Assembly: GCA_027492795.1 (NCBI GenBank)
Contig: JAPUEB010000011.1
Coordinates: 1 to 64,000, forward strand
Length of the DNA: 64,000 nucleotides
Direction: 5' to 3'
Source of the DNA: Chryseobacterium sp.
GTDB taxonomy: Bacteria; Bacteroidota; Bacteroidia; Flavobacteriales; Weeksellaceae
In this document: positions 41,538-50,112 of the stretch, one piece after another
Layout of the letters: each line of letters begins with the position of its first letter
Position numbering within the stretch: position 1 is the first letter of the stretch
Notes under the pieces: generated by a model
Seen by the model: the letters and a program-made list of their open reading frames with translations, nothing else
Database searches by the model: none
Told to the model about the DNA's origin: nothing
Program-made: the position numbers and the translations under genes

Positions 41538-42107
41538 ATGAACCAAGATTTATTGAAAATGCTTGAATTGCTGAATGATAATGAAAAATTTCAGTTAATG
41601 GAGGCTACACAAAATTTCAAAAGATTGGAAGTAAAGAAAAACACATTTCTTTTGAAGCCTGGCGAAACGGAAAATTTTGTGTATTATGTATCAGAAGGAT
41701 TGGTAAGGGTATATCTCGAAAAAAATGATGGAGAAGAAAGCACAATGGGATTTTATACTGAAGGGGATTTTGTTTCGGGTTATCCTTCTTTTTTGTCGCA
41801 AAAACCATCTCTTTTTGGCGTGCAGGTATTGGAAGATTCGGTGCTAATCCAAGGAAGTAGAGAGCAGATCAATGATTTATATTATCGGTTTCCGCTTTTT
41901 GAGAAGTTTGGAAGGTTAGCTATAGAAAAAAACTATATAAAAATTACCGACCATTATGTAGCTCTCCTTACCACATTTTCTGAAGAACGGTATCTAAAGC
42001 TTTTCAAGGAAAACCCAGACCTTATCAATAGAGTTCCCGTAAAGCATTTGGCTACCTTTTTGGGGATACATCCTAATAGTTTGAGTAGGATACGGAAGAA
42101 AATTTAA
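41538..42107 (+). CDS. Crp/Fnr family transcription regulator (first of two)
   Basis: 189 residues. The N-terminal cNMP-binding-like jelly-roll (about 15-125) lacks the cAMP phosphate-binding RxS of E. coli CRP, so the effector is unknown. The C-terminal DNA-binding helices are VKHLATFLGIHPNSLSRIRK (about 168-187), the same as in the regulator at 49528. There is no promoter gap of its own beyond 31 bases, so it may be read from the M28 transcript. It has its own terminator at 42113-42142. The two paralogues bracket the 42-49.5 kb accessory locus. Being regulator of that locus is a possibility, not shown. Confidence 0.9.
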   Translation: MNQDLLKMLELLNDNEKFQLMEATQNFKRLEVKKNTFLLKPGETENFVYYVSEGLVRVYLEKNDGEESTMGFYTEGDFVSGYPSFLSQKPSLFGVQVLEDSVLIQGSREQINDLYYRFPLFEKFGRLAIEKNYIKITDHYVALLTTFSEERYLKLFKENPDLINRVPVKHLATFLGIHPNSLSRIRKKI

Positions 42108-42112
42108 TAAAA

Positions 42113-42142
42113 AAGGCCGTTTCAAGTTATGAAACGGCTTTT
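42113..42142 (+). terminator. Terminator of the first crp/fnr gene
   Basis: AAGGCCGTTTCA and TGAAACGGCTTTT form a stem of about 10 bp with a 5-base loop, followed by a T-run, just past the stop. The region 42143-42359 holds no convincing gene. Confidence 0.8.
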
Positions 42143-42359: not shown

Positions 42360-42929
42360 TTACGGTTTCCAAAAAGACCAAACGGTCCCATTATAAACAC
42401 AAAACAAATTATTTGTAGGATCATATACAACCATACCTGCTGCAGGATTGTTGATAGTGCTGTGAGGATTTTCTACTAAAGGTAAAATCATCGCTTTATT
42501 TGTATCTGCCAATACAAGAATTCCTTTTGTAGTATCTGTTGAGGGATTTCCGCCAATCATTGTTTTAGCATTTTGTAATTCCTTTTTAGTATCTTGTATT
42601 GAAGAATTAACCGTATTGTTTGTAATTCCGGATATTACATCGGTTTTGTTTTTTACCGTAAGATCAAACCATGCACCCGCTTTTCTGTACTTCACTTTGT
42701 AATCGGATAAATCAAAAATTAAAGTTCCATCCTCTGTGCCAGAAATCGCTGTGTAATTTGCAGTAGGTTGATTGGCAATCGTAGAAACCCAAGGTAGTAC
42801 AATTCCTCTATTTTCAGTTCCAAACTCTAATGAAACTGCGGGAGAACTTATGGTGGACTTCCCTATTGCTACTTGCGCAAAAGCGCAAGTAGAAAGGAAT
42901 ATTAAGCATAAATATTTTATTTTTTTCAT
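42360..42929 (-). CDS. Small exported protein with C-terminal GMVVYD...NG..W module
   Basis: 189 residues. Signal peptide (1-19, STCAFAQ). The middle is a polar Asn/Thr/Lys region. The C-terminal 45 residues contain MILPLVENPHSTINNPAAGM, VVYDPTNNLFCVYNGTVWSF and end WKP. This resembles the end of the giant protein just upstream (LKKGMMIYNTDLDCLQINVD), so the two may share a C-terminal display or recognition module. No T9SS type A motif is seen. It is the last gene of the operon from 48200, 18 bases after the giant gene. Its function is unknown. Confidence 0.75.
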   Translation of the reverse strand: MKKIKYLCLIFLSTCAFAQVAIGKSTISSPAVSLEFGTENRGIVLPWVSTIANQPTANYTAISGTEDGTLIFDLSDYKVKYRKAGAWFDLTVKNKTDVISGITNNTVNSSIQDTKKELQNAKTMIGGNPSTDTTKGILVLADTNKAMILPLVENPHSTINNPAAGMVVYDPTNNLFCVYNGTVWSFWKP

Positions 42930-42947
42930 TTTAAAAAATTTTAGAAA

Positions 42948-45900
42948 TTAGTCTGGACAAGATTGAGTATTGAAACATTTCCAACCGGTAGCAGTGCCAT
43001 CTACATTGATTTGCAAACAATCTAAATCGGTGTTATAAATCATCATACCCTTTTTTAGATTTGCAGGTGTAGCATTCAAGGCTGATAACTGTGCGTTCGT
43101 TAAACGGTTTACCACAAAACCTTTTTCCTTTGATTCTAAAACGGTCCAAGCACCATTTCTCACCATTGGCCAATTGTCTGGCTGAACACCATTATTGTTT
43201 GTAGAACTTCCTGCTCTACCCAATGCAGTGATTCCGTGATTTGTTGGCAAATTAGTACCCGAAGTGTAAGCTCCCTTATAGCAGTAGCAAGCCAAAACAT
43301 AATTGTATGTCTTTTTGCCAGTTTGCACCAAAACACTGGAGCAAGTTCCGCCAGGAGCGGTGCTACAAGTAAGACCCGTTATTTGATCTTGAGAAATAAC
43401 ATCAAAACTGTATGAACCTGTAGCAATGGTGCTATTAGGTACAAAAGTTAAATTATAATCCAAATTTTGACCTGTAGTCATTCCTGTTGGTAAAGAAAAT
43501 TTGACATATTTTTTACCTGTAGCTGCATCTGTAAAAATTCCAATGTAGGTAGGACACAGTGTGCTATTACATACAAATGAAGTCGCAGTATGCACATAAT
43601 CGTATCCTGTAGGAACATAAACTAAAATAGTTCCGGTAGATGTAGTTTGTGTTGCTGTAACTACCGTTTGACTAAAGTTCATCGTAAGAGAAGTTTTACA
43701 GCTGGAAATGCTTGCAGCAGTATTAGAAATAACAGTTGAGATGCTATAAACAGGATCCGCACCATTAATTAATACCGAACTTGCTGCCAAAACACTACCA
43801 TTACCTATTGCTGGTTCACCACATGTTCTGTTGGCATTGCCAAAAACAGTAAGATTATCTCCTGATACAAAATCACAGCTACTTGCAATTTTAAACTTCA
43901 CACCAATTAATCTTGAGATAGCATTCCCGCCGTCTGTTAATGTTCCAGGTAAACCGCTTGAAGGATAGTTGGATGCTGTTGTAAGATCAACGGTAGTAGT
44001 ATTAGCAGAAGTGGTTATCGTTGCAGATTGCCAAGTTCCTGTATTTACCGGATATTGCACCAAAAGTGTTCCTGGAACTATCGATAAACCTGTAGGTAAA
44101 TTGATATTAAATTTATGACCTACCGTATTTCCGGCACCTGCAGAGTTGATGCGGAATTCATAATCGAGTTGTGTACACAAATCTACTTTTCCGGTAGGCT
44201 GTTGTACAGTTTGCACCTGTATTTCACCAGTTTGTGGAACAAAAGTAAGATCTGCAGATGCTTTACCACAAGTATAAACTGACGGATCCGTAGGATAACT
44301 GTCACAGTTCCAGCCTCCTTCCACTTTAAATGTTGTGGAGTTACAAGCTGTATAAGTAAAATCTATACGATAATCTTTAAACGTACCCGATGCCAAACCA
44401 GTGGTACTTATTTTATACCAAATACCTCCCGAATAAGTAATTGGTGTTAAAACAGCGTTTGTGGCAACATCTACAACTTGTGTTATATTTACACCTGCAA
44501 CCGTAGGAATAGAAATCCAGGTAAAAGGAGCCGTAGTCGTTCCGGTAGAGGTCATTCTTACTACATAACTGTGGGAAGGCAAAGTTGCCTGTATCGTTCC
44601 CGTTTGATTGGATAAAGATATTGCAGGCTTGGTTTGTATAGTATAGTTTGACGGTATTGTTTTACTAAGTGTTGCTGGTGTTGGCCAAGCTATATCTTTG
44701 TAATGATAGTAATATGGAATATACTCAACAGTACTTGTATAAGGAACGTTTGCTGTTGCTTGCGTTTCACATGTTGGGTTTACATATACATCCATAATCA
44801 AAGCATAAGCATTGGTTACAGTAATATGTAAAGTTTTGGCAGGCAATATAACCTGATAGGTATTTCCACTTACCAATGTTGGGATTAAATTTTCTGTAGG
44901 AAAAGCAGCATCCCTTCCTTCCCATGTTACCTTGTTCAGAGTATATCCAGAAGGTATTGTAAAAGTCCATTTTGTTGGCAAAATTCCAGGGCGAACTTCG
45001 GATAAATACTTTGTACCAGATGCATCAAAGCGATAAGCAATATTATGTGTTGATTGTCCAATATTAAACACATTACAACTGCTTGCAAGTGGTTGGTTTG
45101 AACCGTCAATAATTGTTGGTCTTACTAAATAGATTTCAGGCACCAAATTGTTGCAGGAAAGCTCATTATTAGACAAATCTTTATTATAGAAATAAAAATT
45201 ATTACCCATTTGTTGATCATGTGTAGGCAATATTTCACTGCTTACAGTATAATGGGAAACCGTTTCTATAATATCTCCAGCCAATAAACCGCCGGAAGGC
45301 AAAATTGCGGATAAATCCCAGTCGATTACCTGAATCGCCGTAGTGGTTCCCGTAGTACCAAAAGTAGTAGAATTTCCTGTCGCAATTGTACTTCCACCTC
45401 TTTTTATAATTACGTCAATACTTTTTGGGGTTAGTTTATTATCTGTCCCAGTTAATTTATTCAATTTAAATTTCAAGAAAAGATTAGATGAACTGATGGT
45501 ATTTTGTACAGCATTTGCCGTAATATCAATATCATCCAGATACAAAGCTTTTGCTAAATCATAAGAGCTTATGGCACTTCTTGTTTGGTGAGTGGTCAAA
45601 GTATTATCTGTCCAACCTAAGGAATTGTCTGCACGTTCTATCTTCAATAAGTTTAATGCAGGTCCTCCCGTTGTACAAGGTTCAGGACAAACAGCTTTAC
45701 CAATATCCAAACTTCCACAAAACAACTGCTCGTTGCAGGTACATCCTGTAACAATATTATCAATTCTTTTTAATTTATACGGAATACTAATAGGTCCCGA
45801 AACCCCACAGGTATAAACCAGATCAATTTCAAACCATCCCATTGTTTTATTCGGAGAAGTAACCGTAAAGCCGGTTGCTGTGGCAGTATAGCTTACCGAA

Positions 45901-47606
45901 GTTCCAGCTGAGGAAGCTCCATTTGGATATTGCAGGGGTCGCCAAACTGCATTACCAGTTCCGGAAACAGACATTCCGGCTGGAAGTGTTACTTCATACA
46001 CATATCTTGTGTTATTAGTATCAAAAGGAGAATCAATTTGATAATAACCTACTGAAAATCTTGCTCTGAATGGAGTCCCTCCAAAAATATTGGCCGGCGC
46101 ATACGATTTGTTAGCTAATTGAGTAACCTGCGAAATCAGCCCTGTTCCCGTTTCCACTCTCACTACAGATGTCTCAAGAGTATTACTGCACATAGTAGTG
46201 TATTGTATATCGGATCTTCCTGCATAAGACATACTCCAGTTTTGGTTACAGGTAAACAAGTTACATTTGACTTTTGTTGTAATATCTACAGTAACCGTAT
46301 TTCCGGCAGGTAAATCGTCATAAAAACCGTCTCCATCCAAATCCTCCAAACCAACACCTGCACCATCCGGATCGGTAGTGAACAAATCTTTAACACTTAC
46401 GGAGGCAATTGCACTACTGGTACCGTTGGTAACCGTAATTCCACTTTGTGTACCAATGGTTGCACTGTTAAGGTTTATATAATCCCAACGATTTGCAAAC
46501 AATGCGCCTCCCGAGCTTTGTCCATATCTAAAAACAACATTGTACATTCCCGCTGCTGCTGCGTTACCAGTACCTCCATTGGTAAAGGTATTACGCATAA
46601 TAAATGGGGTACATTGATCTACGTAGCCAATTTTTGCACCAGTAAAAGCAGTAAAGTTTGGTGTACCTCCTACCATATTTACACTACCTATTCCTGTAAC
46701 TGTTTGGCACCAGCTTGCAGGTGCTGCAGAACAACCCCAACCAGAAGAATAGTTGGTAACCGCATTACATACTTTTATTTTATATTTTTCTGTAAAAGTT
46801 AAACTTTCCGCATTGCAAAAATCTCCACCCGGTAGATTTGCAGAAGTAATAGTGTAGTAAGAAGTTGTTCCCGATGTTGATGTGGGCGTTAATGTAACTG
46901 GAGTTGCTAATGCAGTTCCATTTACACTGGTTAATTGCAGCGATGTTTGCTGTATTCCATTTGCAGGATAATCAATAGAAAAATACACGGTATTGGCACA
47001 TCCATTTCCTCCATTATTAATGGTAAAAGTTCGTGTATATTCCGTATTCAATACTGCATTGATTTGGGATGCAGGTTGATTGAAACTGAAAACTGGATAA
47101 AAAGTATTATAAGTAGGTGAATTAGCCGTAGTAGTATCAGTACCAATAGTTCCGGATACAATATCTCTGAAAATTCCACCTCCAACTGCAAAATCTCTTG
47201 CAGGACAAGTTGCTGAGCGATCAATTGTAAAAACAATTCTATTACCCGGGCTTAATGTTAAAGGCCCAATTTTGAACGTGGGAGCATTAAGATTGGCTAT
47301 ACTATTTTCAGAAATGCTTAATCCGCCTAATTGGCTAACGGTAGCCAAAGATCCTGCAACATAATTTACACCGGCAGGAAGTTGTATGGTAACATCCGCT
47401 CCATTGGTTGAAGCCATATTAACATCAAGCTGTACCTGCAATTTCGACTGCCCATTACAAACCGTTAAATTTTGTGGGTTCGCAGTAGGCGAAGTGGAAA
47501 ATGCCGGATAAGTGATGATAAAGGATTGAGCAAAAAACAAATTGCTCAAAAGAAAAAACATTAAAATTAGTGGTAATTTTAAGTTATTTGATAATATAAT
47601 TTTCAT
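42948..47606 (-). CDS. Giant secreted protein, 1552 residues, DUF11-like repeats
   Basis: Signal peptide (about 1-27, LLSNLFFAQ), then a very long strand-rich, Thr/Asn/Gly/Ser-rich region with many phrases of the DUF11/conserved-repeat type: DVTIQLPAGVNYVAGSL, FNINLPTGLSIVPGTLLVQY, ILVYVPTGYDY. Many Cys pairs occur (CSAAPASWCQT, TCNEQLFCG). The C-terminal tail (about 1480-1552) ends LKKGMMIYNTDLDCLQINVD and FNTQSCPD, a module also hinted at in the 42360 protein. No enzyme motif was recognised. It is likely a surface-exposed adhesin or matrix protein. Start at the ATG at 47606. Confidence 0.8.
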   Translation of the reverse strand: MKIILSNNLKLPLILMFFLLSNLFFAQSFIITYPAFSTSPTANPQNLTVCNGQSKLQVQLDVNMASTNGADVTIQLPAGVNYVAGSLATVSQLGGLSISENSIANLNAPTFKIGPLTLSPGNRIVFTIDRSATCPARDFAVGGGIFRDIVSGTIGTDTTTANSPTYNTFYPVFSFNQPASQINAVLNTEYTRTFTINNGGNGCANTVYFSIDYPANGIQQTSLQLTSVNGTALATPVTLTPTSTSGTTSYYTITSANLPGGDFCNAESLTFTEKYKIKVCNAVTNYSSGWGCSAAPASWCQTVTGIGSVNMVGGTPNFTAFTGAKIGYVDQCTPFIMRNTFTNGGTGNAAAAGMYNVVFRYGQSSGGALFANRWDYINLNSATIGTQSGITVTNGTSSAIASVSVKDLFTTDPDGAGVGLEDLDGDGFYDDLPAGNTVTVDITTKVKCNLFTCNQNWSMSYAGRSDIQYTTMCSNTLETSVVRVETGTGLISQVTQLANKSYAPANIFGGTPFRARFSVGYYQIDSPFDTNNTRYVYEVTLPAGMSVSGTGNAVWRPLQYPNGASSAGTSVSYTATATGFTVTSPNKTMGWFEIDLVYTCGVSGPISIPYKLKRIDNIVTGCTCNEQLFCGSLDIGKAVCPEPCTTGGPALNLLKIERADNSLGWTDNTLTTHQTRSAISSYDLAKALYLDDIDITANAVQNTISSSNLFLKFKLNKLTGTDNKLTPKSIDVIIKRGGSTIATGNSTTFGTTGTTTAIQVIDWDLSAILPSGGLLAGDIIETVSHYTVSSEILPTHDQQMGNNFYFYNKDLSNNELSCNNLVPEIYLVRPTIIDGSNQPLASSCNVFNIGQSTHNIAYRFDASGTKYLSEVRPGILPTKWTFTIPSGYTLNKVTWEGRDAAFPTENLIPTLVSGNTYQVILPAKTLHITVTNAYALIMDVYVNPTCETQATANVPYTSTVEYIPYYYHYKDIAWPTPATLSKTIPSNYTIQTKPAISLSNQTGTIQATLPSHSYVVRMTSTGTTTAPFTWISIPTVAGVNITQVVDVATNAVLTPITYSGGIWYKISTTGLASGTFKDYRIDFTYTACNSTTFKVEGGWNCDSYPTDPSVYTCGKASADLTFVPQTGEIQVQTVQQPTGKVDLCTQLDYEFRINSAGAGNTVGHKFNINLPTGLSIVPGTLLVQYPVNTGTWQSATITTSANTTTVDLTTASNYPSSGLPGTLTDGGNAISRLIGVKFKIASSCDFVSGDNLTVFGNANRTCGEPAIGNGSVLAASSVLINGADPVYSISTVISNTAASISSCKTSLTMNFSQTVVTATQTTSTGTILVYVPTGYDYVHTATSFVCNSTLCPTYIGIFTDAATGKKYVKFSLPTGMTTGQNLDYNLTFVPNSTIATGSYSFDVISQDQITGLTCSTAPGGTCSSVLVQTGKKTYNYVLACYCYKGAYTSGTNLPTNHGITALGRAGSSTNNNGVQPDNWPMVRNGAWTVLESKEKGFVVNRLTNAQLSALNATPANLKKGMMIYNTDLDCLQINVDGTATGWKCFNTQSCPD

Positions 47607-47636
47607 TGTGTTTGTTATAAAGTTATTTAATATTCA

Positions 47637-48200
47637 TCAGCCATAAAGCATTTCTGGGGGAGCTCTAAGTGATGTGCAGAAATACATTTTCCATAGGATT
47701 TCTGATATATTTTTTTGAAATTTTCTTGTAGAATTTTTTGAAAAAGGATTCTGAAAAAAATATTTTTGGGGAATGGTAGAAAGCAACTTTGAAGAGGAAT
47801 ATTGAGAATATAAAATTGCTTGGCTTGAAAGAAAACTGCCTACATAGCTAATTTTTTGTAGCGGAGTTTGAATTTGAAAAATTTCACCTTTATTTTGATT
47901 AATTTTTGAAGTATTTCTTAAATACTTCTTGGCAACTACTAAAGTTTTGGTTTTAAAGTATGTTTTTTTTCTGCTTGTATTTTTTTTTAAATTAATTCTT
48001 GATGTTATTTCATGTTCAACATTTGATTCTGCATAAATTAATGCTCCATCAAAAACAATAATATGCTCATCTGGTTTTGAACTTGAATCATTAGAAATTA
48101 TTAGGCTATCATTATAGCTTGATAAAACCTCCGTATTGGAAAAAAAATTATTGCTGAAGAAAATAAACAGTAAAGAAATAAATAATCTACATTTTTTCAT
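47637..48200 (-). CDS. Small exported protein, first gene of the giant-protein operon
   Basis: 187 residues from the ATG at 48200. That start gives a signal peptide (MKKCRLFISLLFIFFSNNFF) and the leader fits the promoter below; the open frame extends upstream but runs into that leader. The mature part is polar, with Lys/Ser-rich stretches (SRINLKKNTSRKKTYFKTKT). No family was recognised. The 30-base gap to the giant gene suggests cotranscription, and its role might be in export or anchoring of that protein. It is preceded by a textbook promoter and a Crp/Fnr-type operator. Confidence 0.65.
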   Translation of the reverse strand: MKKCRLFISLLFIFFSNNFFSNTEVLSSYNDSLIISNDSSSKPDEHIIVFDGALIYAESNVEHEITSRINLKKNTSRKKTYFKTKTLVVAKKYLRNTSKINQNKGEIFQIQTPLQKISYVGSFLSSQAILYSQYSSSKLLSTIPQKYFFQNPFSKNSTRKFQKNISEILWKMYFCTSLRAPPEMLYG

Positions 48201-48284
48201 ATGTAGATTATTTACAATAGAGAGGTCTAATACTGTTAAAGTAATTAAATTGGGTAAACTTAATTTCATCATTTGTGTATGGAG

Positions 48285-48314
48285 CAAATTTAGAAACTGT
48301 TACACCTACAGCAA
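48285..48314 (-). promoter_or_regulatory. Promoter of the giant-protein operon
   Basis: On the minus strand: TTG (48314-48312), 19 bases, TAAATTTG (48292-48285), followed by C. Both boxes match the Bacteroidota consensus. The predicted start of transcription is near 48281, about 80 bases before the ATG at 48200. Confidence 0.75.
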
Positions 48315-48364: not shown

Positions 48365-48898
48365 TTACAACTTAGGTCTTCCCGGCACTTTTTTAGGCAC
48401 AATTTCCATATCAAAACGTTGTTTCCATTCTACCGCCTTTTCTTCAAAATTGTTGAAAATTCTGTTGTCATTACTTTCTTTTCTCATTTCTGAAATATAT
48501 TCTTCACTCCAACGAAAAAACTCTATATACATGAAGCCTAAATAATCATAGCAAATCTCATCATCTATGGTGTTGTTTTTAATATTAATAGCAATGAACT
48601 CGAAGAGGTTGGCAATATTTCTGGTAGCATAAATTACATTGTTTTTAATATCTATATCATCAAGAGTGCTAATATCTTTTGCATAAAATCTCTTTTTATC
48701 AAAAGGCTTGATGTTGTTTTCCGATAAAATTTTAGAAAATTTCGGGTAATCGCCCAATACCAAATCTTTCAAAATTTCTTGTGTAGATTTTCTTCTGTTC
48801 CACTCATGAAATTTTTTCAAAGTTCTATAGGCTGTAACAGCACTAAAACTTACTATCGCCAAAGTAATAGCCTTGAAAATTAAATCTAAAGTTTCCAT
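48365..48898 (-). CDS. Membrane-anchored protein, DUF4760-like
   Basis: 177 residues. One membrane helix near the N-terminus (about 5-24, DLIFKAITLAIVSFSAVTAY) is followed by a helical cytoplasmic domain with EWNRRKSTQEILKDLVLGDY and a long EEKAVEWKQRFDMEIVPKK end. The layout resembles DUF4760, whose function is not known. It lies 34 bases downstream of the other membrane protein (48933-49373), and the two form an operon driven from the promoter at 49390-49434. Function unknown. Confidence 0.6.
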   Translation of the reverse strand: METLDLIFKAITLAIVSFSAVTAYRTLKKFHEWNRRKSTQEILKDLVLGDYPKFSKILSENNIKPFDKKRFYAKDISTLDDIDIKNNVIYATRNIANLFEFIAINIKNNTIDDEICYDYLGFMYIEFFRWSEEYISEMRKESNDNRIFNNFEEKAVEWKQRFDMEIVPKKVPGRPKL

Positions 48899-49468: not shown

Positions 49469-49486
49469 CTAACATTTGTTTGTTAG
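49469..49486 (+). promoter_or_regulatory. Crp/Fnr-type operator, site 3
   Basis: CTAACATTTGTTTGTTAG on the plus strand: arms CTAACA and TGTTAG. It reads toward the crp/fnr gene at 49528. A TAATTTTA box at 49505-49512 is 36 bases from the outer C. It implies autoregulation. Confidence 0.6.
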
Positions 49487-49527
49487 CAAATCCTCTTTTC
49501 TACATAATTTTATTCTTTAAAAAAACC

Positions 49528-50112
49528 ATGGATCTTGAATTCCTAAAAATTTTTGAAAACGTAAGAGATATTTCTTTGGAGAAAATTGTAGAAATCACTC
49601 AAAACCTGGAGAAAAAAAAATTCAAGAAAAATGAAGTGATTTTGAGCGCAGGAATGCAGGAAACCAATCTCTATTTTATCACTAAGGGACTTGTCCGGAT
49701 GTATATCGTTGACAAAAAAGGTGAGGAAAAATCCTATCGTTTCTTCCTGAAAAACAAATTTTTCACCATACTTCCCTCATTTGTAGACGAAATCCCTTCT
49801 CTATATTTCACGCAGGCAATTGAAGAAACAGAAGTTATTGTAATCCCCAAACAACAATTATTAATTTTTTACGAAAAATTTCCGTTCATAGAAAAAGTAG
49901 TAAGGGAGCAAACAGAAAGGTATCTAATAGAAATGTCGAACCACCTTTACAATTTACATATGCACAGTTCAACAGAAAGGTATAGAAACTTTGTAAAAGA
50001 GAATAAAGAACTGGCAAAAGTTTTACCTATAAAATACATTTCAACCTTTCTCGGAATTCATCCGAATAGCTTAAGCAGAATAAGAAAAACAATCGGAATA
50101 AATAATTTGTAG
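49528..50112 (+). CDS. Crp/Fnr family transcription regulator (second of two)
   Basis: 194 residues from the ATG at 49528 (MDLEFLKIFENV); earlier in-frame codons fall in the promoter. The sensor jelly-roll (about 15-125) contains LYFITKGLVRMYIVDKKGEE, without a recognisable cAMP-contact RxS, and the C-terminal DNA-binding helices IKYISTFLGIHPNSLSRIRK (about 170-189) match those of the 41538 regulator. Site 3 lies in its own promoter, and sites 1 and 2 precede the two neighbouring operons, so it is the best candidate for the activator of the locus. The effector is unknown. Confidence 0.9.
   Translation: MDLEFLKIFENVRDISLEKIVEITQNLEKKKFKKNEVILSAGMQETNLYFITKGLVRMYIVDKKGEEKSYRFFLKNKFFTILPSFVDEIPSLYFTQAIEETEVIVIPKQQLLIFYEKFPFIEKVVREQTERYLIEMSNHLYNLHMHSSTERYRNFVKENKELAKVLPIKYISTFLGIHPNSLSRIRKTIGINNL

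Follow-up and report, generated by a model that had tools for sequence, protein, structure and literature searches.

A candidate family of secretory arrest-peptide leaders upstream of giant secreted proteins in Chryseobacterium and related Weeksellaceae

Known secretory arrest peptides are mostly found before genes of the export machinery. The motif RAPP causes ribosome arrest (PMC10951233, PMC12992588), and a RAPP-like peptide encoded upstream of secDF in Flavobacteriales arrested efficiently in a B. subtilis PURE system (PMC10987492). ApcA, ApdA, ApdP, and the "RQH family" (PMC7897499, PMC10987492, PMC10951233, PMC12992588) are, like the leader described here, small upstream open reading frame (uORF) products with an export signal, a long spacer, and a C-terminal R-[A/G]-P-P near the stop codon, with little further similarity. 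However, they head sec/yidC genes, whereas the present family heads giant secreted proteins, mostly carries RPPP, and has its own signal-proximal motif. SecM and VemP share with it an export signal, a spacing of 130 to 160 residues, arrest near the C terminus, and a position before a secretion-related gene; in the long SecM class and VemP the spacing, counted from the signal end, is 131.5 and 133 (PMC10987492). They differ in that SecA or SecDF rather than cargo is encoded downstream, in having a start-masking stem-loop, which was not found here, and in their arrest sequence. Like the leaders, the uA_LPPP uORF of Planctomycetota (PMC10987492) encodes a signal-bearing product with X-P-P-P among its last 15 residues, but it lies upstream of secA and has Leu in place of their Arg. 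The leader also differs from CruR (DUF2946) of Bordetella pertussis (PMC9426467) in that it has no CXXC copper motif; a Pfam search gave no DUF2946 match among 19 family members, and a Rho site as in CruR has no synonymous-site evidence in the leaders.

The locus lies in a 64,000-nucleotide stretch of Chryseobacterium sp. DNA (contig JAPUEB010000011.1), referred to as the window. The source genome (2.96 Mb, 46 contigs) has a type IX secretion system (T9SS), with SprA present, and about 51 type A tails. Three consecutive minus-strand ORFs, with the giant between two small genes and gaps of 30 and 18 bases, are present, and each product has an N-terminal hydrophobic export signal, in agreement with a preliminary description of this DNA, which had also quoted the C termini of the giant and of the last small protein (at 42360) correctly. 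The features are as follows.

48153 to 48185, minus strand: hydrophobic core of the leader export signal (LFISLLFIFFS), at the hydropathy peak
48033 to 48062, minus strand: I-x-V-x-x-G-A-x-I motif (IIVFDGALIY) just after the signal, from alignments
47637 to 48272, minus strand: leader ORF (uORF), a candidate secretory arrest peptide of 211 aa from the ATG at 48272
47655 to 47666, minus strand: RAPP codons AGA GCT CCC CCA, predicted stall site, from the sequence and family conservation
47607 to 47636, minus strand: gap of 30 bases between leader stop and giant start, without a predicted masking hairpin
42948 to 47606, minus strand: ORF of the giant secreted protein, 1552 aa
42975 to 43157, minus strand: C-terminal module of the giant, about residues 1484 to 1544, from hhalign and the model
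42360 to 42929, minus strand: small secreted partner, 189 aa, two modules in tandem, from the ORF, hhalign, and the model
42666 to 42815, minus strand: partner module 1 (hhalign against the giant tail, 93.0%)
42372 to 42530, minus strand: partner module 2, C-terminal and closest to the giant's tail (hhalign 98.3%, E 2e-14)
42116 to 42138, minus strand: terminator-like hairpin 3' of the partner gene, a probable operon end, from a consensus scan whose sites are not commoner in the whole region than in shuffles

Alternative leader starts are TTG 48287 (47637 to 48287, 216 aa), ATG 48269, and ATG 48200. The gene directly upstream of the leader, also on the minus strand, encodes a DUF4760 protein (48365 to 48898; Pfam E 6e-19). 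On either side of the operon, at 41538 to 42107 and 49480 to 50112, lie genes for two related Crp/Fnr-type regulators that share 39% identity; the linkage of such genes to the trio suggested previously did not extend to relatives, as none was found within 1.5 kb of any of 138 related uORFs. Crp/Fnr linkage was thus rejected as a general leader feature, and the source genome has about ten such paralogues.

No curated family in Pfam, NCBIfam, or PHROG covers any of the three operon proteins, and the "DUF11-like" repeats earlier ascribed to the giant matched no domain in these databases. The Pfam search likewise found no T9SS type A tail (Por_Secre_tail) in the giant or the partner, as had been stated before. 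A single-protein search of genome contigs with the giant gave no match; the partner profile did find matches. One near-full-length relative of the giant, 55% identical, likewise has a leader in front, ending SVRPPPIFFT, and the trio was found again across Weeksellaceae, in Chryseobacterium, Epilithonimonas, Cloacibacterium, and Kaistella.

The leader ends in CTSLRAPPEMLYG followed by the stop codon (also given as MYFCTSLRAPPEMLYG and stop), with the RAPP motif, unnoticed in the preliminary description, five residues before the stop. It has the sequence characteristics of RAPP-like arrest peptides: a same-strand upstream uORF, a localization signal, a conserved C-terminal motif, and a spacer. 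It belongs to a family of more than 100 distinct uORFs of about 200 aa each, whose profile matched in 116 of 296 genomes and 17 of the 33 genera of the taxonomic family; the window leader matches this profile over its full length with an E value of 6e-40 (it is itself among the profile sequences) and the profile without the C terminus with an E value of 4e-19. Alignments give a common order of an extended export signal, I-x-V-x-x-G-A-x-I, a basic linker, R-[P/A/G]-P-[P/T], and a short tail. A comparable hydrophobic core is present in all 88 non-redundant leaders (minimum hydropathy peak, 1.95), and 73 of the 88 have the I-x-V-x-x-G-A-x-I pattern, a possible sensor element. The only invariant alignment columns are the initiator Met, the Arg, and one Pro, and outside the conserved motifs the leader body is hypervariable yet of fixed length. 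Signal core and Arg are separated by a narrow range of distances (median 162, quartiles 156 to 167), well above the >30 residues that serve as a criterion for RAPP-like arrest peptides, and the 2 to 5 residues after R-x-P-P are unconserved, with neither a hydrophobic segment nor a basic anchor among them. In the 45 residues preceding the signal core, TTG and GTG are the only starts in 26 of the 88 leaders, and 3 leaders lack a start there altogether; initiation at non-ATG codons may hold leader synthesis at a low level.

The association of the motif with the leaders was first apparent in 40 related loci retrieved on account of the giant's tail, where an ORF ending in RxPP lay upstream of 19 of the 51 ORFs with the tail; just 22 of 998 ORFs ended in this way. 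Using a profile from which the C-terminal columns had been removed, 82 leaders were recovered from 100 loci and R[PAG]P[PT] was present in every one, in 81 within the last 20 residues and in the other as RGPP slightly further in; RxP occurred in 8 of 257 control ORFs. As these loci had been chosen in part by the full profile or the motif, the test was repeated on 80 named genome loci chosen by the partner gene alone, and the motif was present in 33 of 33 leaders, 25 of which share <60% identity with every seed. With a broader C-terminus-free profile (A4), applied to 396 genomes of the order, 22 leaders were identified at newly fetched loci, and 21 of these end in RPPP. The sole exception (L309; G441:C104), which comes from a different family within the order, has the ending SLPPPFLV, as though its arrest core had changed from RPPP into the LPPP seen in uA_LPPP, a motif shown to arrest (PMC10987492). 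The 137 small ORFs that end in the motif, and were partly selected for it, contain R[PAG]PP 132 times; the 583,600 residues encoded by other ORFs contain it twice. Across the 88 leaders, each of the six Arg codons and each of the four Pro codons appears at the motif, indicating that the peptide and not the RNA is under conservation, and dN/dS was 0.22 to 0.61 in thirty close leader pairs. Strong full-length members are essentially confined to this one taxonomic family, which named genome records show to be Weeksellaceae. The exception is Flavobacterium tegetincola, which has RGPP-type leaders and module cassettes, possibly acquired by horizontal transfer; apart from this species and the LPPP ORF, matches outside the family were partial and were rejected as signal-peptide-like noise.

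A large secreted gene bearing the C-terminal module (median, about 950 aa) follows 72 of 84 leaders, and a partner gene is next in 65 of these 72. For most of the remaining leaders, the fetched stretch ends too early, the giant that follows is split, or the next gene encodes a secreted "QVGINT" protein. No secA-, secDF-, or yidC-type gene, the mark of a Sec/YidC monitor, was found downstream, where the genes encode large secreted proteins. A recognizable leader is missing from about half of the cassettes selected by their partner gene, and in the source genome two of the four module cassettes have one, those of the window and of contig C25. Downstream of the C25 leader, which ends in KKKFSIRPPPSCGIII, lie secreted ORFs of 391 and 459 aa, with the tail module in the 459-aa product, and a partner; the cassettes on contigs C28 and C35 consist of module and partner without a recognizable leader.

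With a whole family of leaders ending in a ribosome-jamming motif, the small gene is most likely a built-in sensor and not a helper. We consider that the first gene probably encodes a secretory nascent-chain arrest peptide, which would regulate the giant cargo operon in cis rather than serve as a structural partner. Leader anatomy, amino-acid-level conservation of the motif, fixed spacing, and operon linkage were computed here, and from them we infer the arrest itself, the cis regulation, and the releasing signal and its sign. The leader would be translated as a secretory nascent chain comprising the export signal, a short beta-like motif, and a basic spacer, and the ribosome would stall once R-A-P had been made, with the last Pro incoming and the CCC codon at 47660 to 47658 in the P site. 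The stalled ribosome would end near 47643, by analogy with general ribosome footprints, and would thus leave the giant start at 47606 free. The stall would be relieved when the emerging chain is pulled or folds, possible signals being Sec engagement or folding or ligand binding near the signal-proximal motif, and stalling and relief would set expression of the operon, that is, of the giant and the module-bearing partner. By the precedents of SecM and CruR, arrest would switch the operon on. A SecM-style unmasking is disfavored, as no start-masking hairpin was predicted in a comparison of 39 loci with shuffles (p 0.18); predicted accessibility of the giant start in the window was 0.76 free and 0.77 stalled. 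Attenuation by intrinsic terminators was rejected, since terminators were found at just 2 of 47 loci. Coupling through Rho, as in CruR (PMC9426467), is conceivable, though the leader sequences lend it no support.

In mutagenesis and screens, P, A, and G are arrest-permissive at the x position of the motif, G fully and P partly (PMC12992588). RPPP, which most leaders carry, is only partly permissive in ApdA, and this counts against arrest as the best explanation. An RPPP stall is possibly relieved by EF-P. Control of cargo instead of machinery is also unusual for Sec monitors and likewise counts against it.

An alternative is that the stall exerts no control over expression and instead keeps the transcript, with its ribosomes, tethered to the Sec translocon; synthesis of the giant would then take place beside the membrane. 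With roughly 160 residues between signal core and motif, the signal of a stalled chain would lie well beyond the ribosome, and the products encoded downstream are secreted, both in keeping with such tethering, which the many cassettes without a leader make rather unlikely. In a second alternative, R-x-P-P-x(2-5) would serve as a tag for sorting, processing, or docking at the C terminus of a secreted protein that aids export, folding, or anchoring of the giant, much as the preliminary description had proposed in regarding the first small protein as an export or anchoring helper. The leader product is exported by prediction, its gene adjoins that of the giant, and it is under purifying selection. 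However, the near-invariant residues are those of the R-x-P-[P/T] arrest motif and match the peptidyl-transferase arrest core, while the rest of the protein is hypervariable at constant length, and the tail of 2 to 5 unconserved residues has neither a hydrophobic segment nor a basic anchor. Moreover, about half of the module giants have no leader gene, so the leader is not obligatory for export; a tag or helper function thus appears quite improbable. Conservation at the RNA level, whether of a Rho site, a riboswitch, or an attenuator that overlaps the end of the leader, is very improbable, since the C>G bias seen in 94% of leaders over the 240 nt that precede the motif (p 6e-17) shows no excess at fourfold sites and is therefore treated as amino-acid composition without support for Rho, all synonymous codons are in use at the motif, Rfam matched no known RNA element, hairpin terminators are few, and start masking was not found.

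Beyond the candidate arrest leader, the C-terminal module common to the giant and the last small protein, as previously proposed, was borne out. HHalign comparison of profiles built from 57 giant tails and 47 partners gave a probability of 97.8% (E 8e-13, 53 columns), and the two halves of the partner match each other (95.3%, E 2e-8). On these profile comparisons, the last ~50 residues of the giant are homologous to the partner, which is a tandem of two such modules. In the structure comparison that the preliminary description had called for, AlphaFold gave the same confident helix and three strands in giant tail and partner, in whole models of moderate quality (pLDDT 71 to 73). Given the homologous module and the conserved neighborhood, neither of the two refuting outcomes named in the preliminary description, unrelated C-terminal folds or genes that are not neighbors in any relative, was observed. 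The giant's tail was also found in three more proteins of the source genome, each followed by a small secreted partner, and 34 of 99 related genomes encode proteins with it. No sequence family reached the cutoff against the module, and the partner profile had no relative in a PDB sequence search. The module shows a weak fold resemblance to collagen XV/XVIII NC1, phage MTD, and CBA120 tailspikes: the top Foldseek matches in the PDB were collagen XV/XVIII trimerization domains and phage receptor-binding trimers, at an E value of about 0.4 at best, and VIA matches were also weak (Z at most 3.6). A 1:1 giant-partner complex would hold three modules, which suggests a pseudo-trimeric cap. Tentatively, then, this lineage-wide expanded family of arrest peptides could act as cargo-level checkpoints, one nascent-chain sensor to each giant surface-protein operon, that sense export or assembly before the costly giant is made, with the giant tail and two partner modules forming such a cap, although we lean somewhat against this fuller picture.

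A literature search for arrest peptides in Bacteroidota returned only two surveys by Fujiwara et al., and none of the papers found connects type IX secretion to translation arrest. As far as their accessible text goes, the scope of these surveys was sec/yidC uORFs or RAPP/RGPP before annotated genes, and the main text of the RAPP/RGPP survey makes no mention of RPPP, T9SS, or gliding proteins; the minority of leaders with RAPP or RGPP may in part be in its supplementary tables. RAPP-like arrest uORFs are thus a known kind, and the family, its class of downstream genes, and its preference for RPPP appear to be new. The RPPP variant, which most leaders use, would be missed by RAPP/RGPP surveys. 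If the proposed arrest is true, a large lineage-specific arrest-peptide family controls giant secreted cargo, over a hundred "hypothetical proteins" of Chryseobacterium and its relatives would become testable sensors, and a direct handle would be gained on the control of large surface proteins in these bacteria.
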